Assembly (NCBI GenBank): GCA_016871175.1
Contig: VFZL01000004.1
Location: 62,001-126,000 of the forward strand
Direction of reading: 5' to 3'
DNA length: 64,000 bases
Origin: Acidimicrobiia bacterium
Lineage (GTDB): Bacteria; Acidobacteriota; Vicinamibacteria; Vicinamibacterales; CAVVIG01
A program made the translations under genes and the position numbers. The notes beneath the pieces were generated by a model. That model was not told the origin of the DNA and searched no databases. It worked only from the letters and a program-made list of their open reading frames with translations. Positions 38,217 to 39,388 of this stretch are shown here, piece after piece (the stretch's first letter is position 1; each line of letters starts with the position of its first letter).

Positions 38217-38912
38217 CTACTCGGCCTGAGAGAAGAGCGCCTGTTCGATGAACGCGTCTTCTGGCAGTGCTCCCAGGATTTCGATTGTGTTGTCGACGAT
38301 CGTCTTGGGGACTCCGGTGACGCGGTACTTCCGCGCCAGGTCCGGGTGCTCGGTGGCCTCGACCGCGTAGGCCGTGATGTGGGGGCTGGCGAACGCCATC
38401 TCATGCGCGAGCGTCACGGCTCGCGGGCAGTGCGGTCACGTGGGTGTAGTGAACACGTGCAGCGTCACCGGACGCTGGACGGATGCCAAGCGCTGACGAG
38501 ACGCTTCCGAGAGCTGCGACTCACCGCCGCCCGCCAGCAGCACAGCCTGCACCAGCGACACGAACTCGTATCCAGCCGGCGTCCCGAGAAAGCGGATGCG
38601 CGTGTCGACGAGATCCCCGGAGTCAGCCGAGCCATCGGCGGCAGACACGTGATCGATCTGTGCGTACGCCACCGCGATGGCCGGCACCCGGTCGATGCCG
38701 TACCGCCGAGCGCGGTCAGGTTCCAGGACGAAGTTGACCTCGTCGATGATGACGCGGCTGGACAGGGCCGGGAGCTCGTTCAGCACCTGCCGCGTCTGTG
38801 CGCAGGTCTCGCACCCCAGCGACTGCGTGAAGAACAGCAGGTGTACTGGTCGCGTCAACTGTTCGAATTCGGTGCGCAATCGCGTTTGGTCAGCGGAGCC
38901 GAGCAGCGACAT
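38217..38912 (-). CDS. Candidate selenoprotein: two-domain thioredoxin-fold oxidoreductase (PDO-like), UGA = Sec159
   Basis: 231 residues if the TGA at 38438-38436 is read as selenocysteine. Two thioredoxin folds, as in PDO/GlrX-like protein disulfide oxidoreductases. Domain 1 has CETC (34-37) and VPAIAVAYA (cis-Pro loop); domain 2 has HVFTTPT-U-PHCPRAV, so the TGA replaces the first Cys of the CxxC redox pair, and VTGVPKTIVDN (cis-Pro loop) follows further on in the same frame. Protein text is fully coherent on both sides and ends normally at TAG 38217. A 7-bp hairpin 10 nt after the TGA fits a bacterial SECIS. Cytoplasmic, dithiol/selenol redox role. The alternative, a nonsense mutation TGC/TGT to TGA, is possible but would have hit exactly the active-site Cys. 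Confidence 0.85.
38406..38425 (-). promoter_or_regulatory. SECIS-like hairpin after the in-frame UGA
   Basis: On the minus strand CGCGAGC (38425-38419) pairs perfectly with GCTCGCG (38412-38406), enclosing a hexaloop CGUGAC. The hairpin starts 10 nt, and the loop 17 nt, after the UGA, the same loop distance as in the E. coli fdhF SECIS, and the loop has G at position 2 followed by U, as SelB recognition elements usually require. It is inside coding sequence, as bacterial SECIS elements are. Confidence 0.7.
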
Positions 38913-38941: not shown

Positions 38942-39388
38942 TTACTTGAACAGCTCATCGAACGCACGACGTGCACTATGTTGATCGGTGGCCGTGGCGG
39001 TGCCTGTTTGACGCTCGACGGTGGTGCGCGCACTGAAGAACGTGCAGGCATTGCGCTCGTCCTTCGGGGCGACTCGCTCGGGAAGCCCAGTCTGCGTACA
39101 CTGCCAGCGCGCGCTCGTGTCGAACGACACGCAATTGATGCAACTGTGGACGTCGACACCGCATCGAGCACACCGCGTGTCGAGGGCGACGTCGGTTGAC
39201 AGGCGATTGCCGCAGCGCGCGCAGCGGAAGACCTCGTGTGAGGCCATCAGGTTCGGGGTCCGTGGCCCGGAGGCGTCCTGAAGTGGGCGTCCCGGTGCAC
39301 GGGGCTCCGGCGCACGTTTCGGTGGTCGGGGCTGTTTGTCTCGCGGTTCGTCTTGATAGCCTCGTTGACGGTACTTGCGCTCGCTCAT
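38942..39388 (-). CDS. Zinc-ribbon protein of unknown function
   Basis: 148 residues from ATG 39388 (MSERKYRQRGYQDE, then a Pro/Arg-rich linker). Six Cys in three CxxC pairs at 56/59, 73/76 and 83/86 (FRCARCGNRL, TRCARCGVD, SCINC), followed by FSARTTVERQT. It resembles a recurring acidobacterial protein I know only as hypothetical. It is the first gene of a likely operon with the selenoprotein (29-bp gap) and the M61 peptidase. The metal-binding pattern suggests a nucleic-acid or protein-binding role. Confidence 0.8.
   Translation of the reverse strand: MSERKYRQRGYQDEPRDKQPRPPKRAPEPRAPGRPLQDASGPRTPNLMASHEVFRCARCGNRLSTDVALDTRCARCGVDVHSCINCVSFDTSARWQCTQTGLPERVAPKDERNACTFFSARTTVERQTGTATATDQHSARRAFDELFK

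Follow-up and report, generated by a model that had tools for sequence, protein, structure and literature searches.

The window, the 64,000-nucleotide stretch of DNA analysed here, encodes on its minus strand (38217..38912) a two-domain protein disulfide oxidoreductase (PDO) whose gene carries one in-frame UGA. Comparison with related sequences indicates that the gene very probably encodes a selenoprotein form of PDO (TIGR02187), in which the UGA at codon 159 is read as selenocysteine (Sec). A UxxC selenoprotein with a PDO-like fold had been proposed in the first-pass annotation of the window, and the proposal is supported by the conservation of the UGA, by homologues with Cys in its place, by the Sec machinery of the genome, by a SECIS-type hairpin behind the UGA and by the predicted fold. 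The wider interest of the system lies in an apparent replacement of the Sec machinery.

Reading Frame, Fold and Genomic Context

Translation of the minus-strand frame from 38912 to 38217 gives 158 residues, a TGA (38438-38436), 72 further residues and a TAG, that is, 231 codons plus the terminator, in agreement with the first-pass annotation, according to which the frame is broken only by this TGA, at the first Cys of a CxxC motif, and continues for 72 residues past it. The TGA (38436..38438, minus strand) is preceded by VFTTPT and followed by PHCPRAV, so that Sec, as residue 159, would occupy the first position of a C-terminal UxxC active site (U-P-H-C, residues 159-162; 38427..38438, minus strand). 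The N-terminal domain carries a CETC motif (residues 34-37; 38802..38813, minus strand). Pro202 of a VPK loop (38307..38309, minus strand) is invariant in an alignment of 21 rows and by analogy corresponds to the cis-Pro of the second thioredoxin fold, its cis conformation being the one expected from the family. A plain ORF call stops the oxidoreductase at the UGA, with the result that the active site is lost.

With the UGA written as C, the protein scores 229.8 bits against the NCBIfam model TIGR02187 (“PDO_seleno_TRX”; cut-off 185), covering profile positions 3-206 of 209. An AlphaFold2 model made from 21 aligned sequences reaches a pLDDT of 94.6, and in a Foldseek search the whole model matches the PDO structures 2ywm and 1a8l at TM 0.84-0.86, so that two fused thioredoxin folds and a full-length PDO match are predicted. 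By sequence, the nearest solved relatives are 2ywm, 2ayt and 1a8l.

Directly after the oxidoreductase gene lies a gene for an M61-type peptidase, while the upstream neighbour, 29 nt before it, encodes a Cys-rich, zinc-ribbon-like protein of 148 aa (38942..39388, minus strand) that has no Pfam match at E<=0.01. A homologue of this neighbour was found in the same stretch at 29 of 44 distinct loci, many of the stretches carrying only 1.5 kb or less of flank, and it accompanies both Sec and Cys forms, which makes it, on positional grounds, a candidate partner of the oxidoreductase. In G001 and G016 the neighbour lies in the opposite orientation.

Conservation of the UGA Codon Among Relatives

The search covered 60 genomes, the window's own (G000) and 59 relatives, and found an oxidoreductase homologue in 42 of them. 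Looking for Cys or TGA at this codon in homologues had been suggested in the first-pass annotation: in the alignment, 32 full-length homologues have TGA at the codon for residue 159 and nine have TGC or TGT, which makes the UGA form the commoner one among the relatives searched. The Cys forms are those of G004, G007, G016, G021, G022, G032 and G056, together with second copies in G002 and G028, and seven of the 60 genomes are Cys-only. Of the remaining 21 genomes, none has a full-length homologue; the machinery is present in some of these and absent from others. Left out of the counts as partial were G046, where only the C-terminal part is covered, with one TGA, G024, which matches at its two ends only, and G035, whose weak stretch is probably unrelated; three named contigs that duplicate G001, G016 and G003 with identical context were excluded as well. 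The context in the genus-mate G001 is also that of CADEDC010000009.1, a contig from an uncultured acidobacterium, and on this ground the window is placed in Acidobacteriota. At the G024 locus (L060), residues 1-33 and 199-226 stand in direct succession, so that the UGA is removed, in a genome with selA and tRNA-Sec; judging from the sequence, this looks like an internal deletion or an assembly fault.

The same annotation had named stops at other places in the relatives as a sign of simple decay; in all 32 rows with the UGA form there is a single internal stop, which is a TGA and falls at the same codon every time, at identities down to about 40%. It is therefore very improbable that the gene is decaying, with the TGA as a genuine stop and the downstream half as a relic. 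The apparent internal deletion in G024 indicates that decay may occur in the family, but the half downstream of the UGA is strongly conserved in the alignment, and all 32 UGA forms reside in genomes with Sec machinery.

We consider it equally hard to credit that the functional product is truncated at the UGA and consists of one domain. The first domain is indeed a well-formed unit with its CETC in the predicted model, but it is the motif of the second domain that is better kept, with the C-terminal [U/C]xxC present in 41/41 sequences and both N-terminal Cys in 35/41, and the Cys homologues read straight through. The description of domain 1 as keeping a normal CETC accordingly holds for the window gene but not throughout the family, since the genus-mate G001 has SETC at this place.

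Selenocysteine Machinery

All four Sec components whose presence in the same genome the first-pass annotation had asked about are over their cut-offs in G000: a tRNA-Sec of 74.6 bits with a TCA anticodon, and selA, selB and selD with profile scores of 579, 296 and 379 bits, respectively, the three genes adjoining one another. Across the 60 genomes each component was scored by its own cut-off, and tRNA-Sec matches of 49-53 bits were set aside as tRNA-Ser because the sole member of this group that was checked, which lies in the window, is a tRNA-Ser. This tRNA-Ser(TGA) at 1850-1939 scores 51 bits, enough to pass the gathering score of Rfam's tRNA-Sec model, and is therefore a source of false tRNA-Sec calls.

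At least three of the four components are over cut-off in every one of the 32 UGA genomes, whereas none of the four is over cut-off in six of the seven genomes with Cys forms only. The exception is G056, which has the Cys form together with selA, selB and tRNA-Sec, and no selD over cut-off. The association (32/32 UGA genomes against 1/7 Cys-only genomes with Sec machinery) has a Fisher p of 2e-6, uncorrected for kinship, and on the tree there are four independent Sec/Cys contrasts, of which three fit, none goes against and one is without difference (sign test p 0.25).

The same evidence bears on the idea that the UGA is read otherwise, by a near-cognate tRNA or through a change of the code, to give Trp or another residue. 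Such a reading is most unlikely, since the nine full-length homologues without UGA all have Cys here and the genome has a UCA-anticodon tRNA-Sec together with selA, selB and selD. Moreover, when the window was scanned for TGA codons with a biased open frame running on at both sides, five were obtained, the TGA of the oxidoreductase included, and the remaining four were judged solely from their contexts to be gene ends or antisense frames.

A SECIS-Type Hairpin Downstream of the UGA

Behind the UGA the mRNA can form a SECIS-type hairpin (38406..38425, minus strand) with a 7-bp stem and a 6-nt loop, CGUGAC (38418-38413), a feature that was assessed by folding and by comparison of codon choice. 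In the accessible text of PMC13188914, the rules for bacterial SECIS (bSECIS) elements comprise an apical loop of 3-9 nt, a G in the first two loop positions, an upper stem of 4-16 bp, a distance of 16-37 nt from UGA to loop and an MFE of -7.5 kcal/mol or lower. The hairpin of the window conforms to these rules, with its 6-nt loop and 7-bp stem, a loop that starts 17 nt after the UGA and an MFE of -12.5 kcal/mol. For the 44 nt from the UGA in the window sequence, RNAfold gave a structure no better than those of dinucleotide shuffles (z -0.54; 55/200 as good), and single-sequence folding was dropped as SECIS evidence because this result is not significant.

Comparison with synonymous recodings is more informative in the set of genes as a whole: the stability of the hairpin region has a mean z of -1.8 in the 32 UGA genes and of -0.6 in the nine Cys genes, and for the window gene alone 13/300 recodings fold as well. 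At codons +6 to +8, the choice is narrow in the UGA genes and different in the Cys genes, with GCG for Ala at +6 in 27/32 UGA genes as against GCC in 4/7 Cys genes, GTC for Val at +7 in 26/32 as against GTG in 8/9, and AGC for Ser at +8 in 23/23 UGA genes. Elsewhere it is the Cys genes that are more uniform, namely at +4 (Pro CCG in 9/9 Cys genes and 21/32 UGA genes) and at +10 (Ala GCG in 7/9 and 14/29, respectively).

A stem counter that accepts 5- or 6-nt loops only found 6-7 bp in 29/32 UGA genes, 4 in G033 and 0 in G040 and G050, and never more than 3 in the Cys genes. By RNAfold, G040, G050 and the Cys gene G056 form a 7-bp stem with a 4-nt loop while scoring low by the stem counter, and the contrast between UGA and Cys genes in this count is therefore somewhat overstated, because 4-nt loops were disallowed. 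Two of the Cys genes, G016 (L020) and G056 (L057), fold nearly as well as the UGA genes (z -1.77 and -1.82), the region after the Cys codon still forming a hairpin about as stable as in the latter; these two Cys forms could be recent Sec-to-Cys switches.

Proposed Decoding and Function

Insertion of Sec at residue 159 itself very probably takes place, to go by the comparative data. The ribosome would decode the UGA at codon 159 as Sec by means of the cell's SelB, its tRNA-Sec and the in-frame SECIS just downstream. By analogy, Sec159 would be the attacking residue of the C-terminal UxxC in disulfide exchange, and the protein, likely cytoplasmic as no signal peptide was seen by eye, may act in disulfide reduction or exchange, or in electron transfer to a peroxidase, as suggested by PDO and by the N-terminal part of AhpF. 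Because it is lost in some relatives, the N-terminal CxxC probably serves as an accessory relay.

Probable Replacement of the Selenocysteine Machinery in the Genus

In a tree of SelB, in which the bootstrap had not settled, G000, G001, G011 and G027 form one group (100/100) whose branch measures 2.99 changes per site, and ten further members of the family fall outside it. The tree was built from 40 selB loci, of which G058, G041 and G029 were lost at the motif filter, which found no frame in them; G010 (an eleventh family member, frame-broken and on a very long branch) and the short G020 are partial rows, and the UGA genomes G009, G013, G019, G028 and G051 stand outside the tree. The four genomes of the group have a divergent selA-selB-selD cluster (L062, L063, L064 and L065, respectively). 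The tRNA-Sec sequences of G000, G001 and G027 agree at 93-98% with one another and at 71-87% with those from six other genomes. Among the matches listed for 297 genomes of the phylum, from which G001 is absent, the SelB with the best E-value, once G000, G011 and G027 are set aside, is 39% identical, and outside the group of four the identity reaches at most 46%, over part of the protein only; a donor of the foreign machinery was not found among these matches. Trees were made of SelB and PDO, while the evidence on SelA and SelD comes from their profile scores, the order of the genes and the sequence context of the selD UGA.

The PDO tree (41 rows, with the partial G046, G024 and G035 and the three duplicate contigs left out) places the window gene within the family, with G017 and G026 as its neighbours (98/88). 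Taken together, it seems reasonably likely that the genus swapped its Sec machinery for a foreign selA-selB-selD and tRNA-Sec and kept its native UGA oxidoreductase, which would now be decoded by the foreign SelB; the simplest reading is that the machinery was exchanged while the UGA gene stayed in place. The oxidoreductase may have passed from one SelB to the other either directly or via a temporary Cys stage, and a Cys stage and return is conceivable because G016, which has the Cys form and lacks the machinery, is placed near the window gene (94/65). If the replacement is real, it would constitute a natural experiment on the handover of a resident UGA gene and its SECIS between SelBs, and together with the Sec/Cys switches it offers a usable system for studying the gain and loss of selenoproteins and their handover to new decoding factors.

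The possibility that the SECIS was re-tuned to the foreign SelB was considered, given that the loop is GGUCA in 21/32 UGA genes and CGUGA in G000 and G001, and found to be unsupported: G053 and G058 have CGUGA too, and G036 has CGUGG. Of these, G053 and G036 fall outside the foreign SelB group and G058 is absent from the SelB tree. The GU of the oxidoreductase loop is, in addition, dictated by the conserved Val codon. The selD loops, read at a fixed offset after tblastn had located the selD UGA, are GGUGC in 13, GGUCC in 12, GGUUC in four, CGUGC in one and CGUGU in one of 31 genomes that do not belong to the group of four, not all of which are in the SelB tree, and CGUGC in two, CGUGU in one and GGUGC in one within the group. 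Since the same loop types thus occur outside the foreign SelB group, no re-tuning is claimed.

Further in-frame TGA codons were observed near the machinery genes. Beside selA-selB-selD, G000 (L062:1393-1968, contig C29) and G001 (L063:9628-9999) have a Prx-like gene with a TGA at the place of the peroxidatic Cys, between KAFTAG and TAEC, and by eye a CUC-CGUGA-GAG hairpin lies downstream, which makes the gene a candidate for a further selenoprotein. A Prx-like fragment near selA in G027 (L039), with an in-frame TGA between SADW and PFC and, again by eye, a hairpin loop CGUGG, is another such candidate.

Comparison With Known Systems

The PDOs of Pyrococcus furiosus (1a8l) and Aquifex aeolicus (2ywm, 2ayt) likewise consist of two thioredoxin folds and share 28-31% identity with the window protein in the fold match. 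In the alignments, the Aquifex aeolicus structures 2ywm and 2ayt have Cys where the window protein has Sec, and presumably 1a8l has Cys at this place too. Structures of the N-terminal domain of AhpF follow a little behind PDO in the fold match (TM 0.76-0.82). Unlike AhpF, the window protein, with only 231 codons, lacks the flavoprotein part, and it scores 69.5 bits against an AhpF cut-off of 502.9.

A mixed CxxC/UxxC form had been thought possibly undescribed in the first-pass annotation, a view that cannot be kept: the family is named PDO_seleno_TRX in NCBIfam, and, as far as the accessible parts of the sources go, a “Homolog of AhpF N-terminal domain (Grx-like domain protein)” with TIGR02187 and UxxC appears in selenoprotein lists (PMC9312934, PMC13188914), while the AhpF-homolog family of the same name was listed in 2006 (PMC1794560). 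This kind of selenoprotein is therefore not new, having been in print since 2006, with UxxC in the later lists. For Acidobacteriota, the accessible text of one study counts three known selenoprotein genes, unnamed there, in one acidobacterium (PMC12013277). In the literature searched, which covered few subscription papers and in part only the accessible text, little was found on selenoproteins in this phylum, and no report of the TIGR02187 selenoprotein family in it (PMC12013277 and PMC5029168 included). Being common within an order of Acidobacteriota, the UGA form adds a selenium-dependent redox enzyme to the phylum. With the printed “homolog of AhpF N-terminal domain” family the window protein has both TIGR02187 and UxxC in common, but the members named in the accessible part of the 2006 list come from Carboxydothermus and Symbiobacterium (PMC1794560), whereas the window gene belongs to Acidobacteriota.
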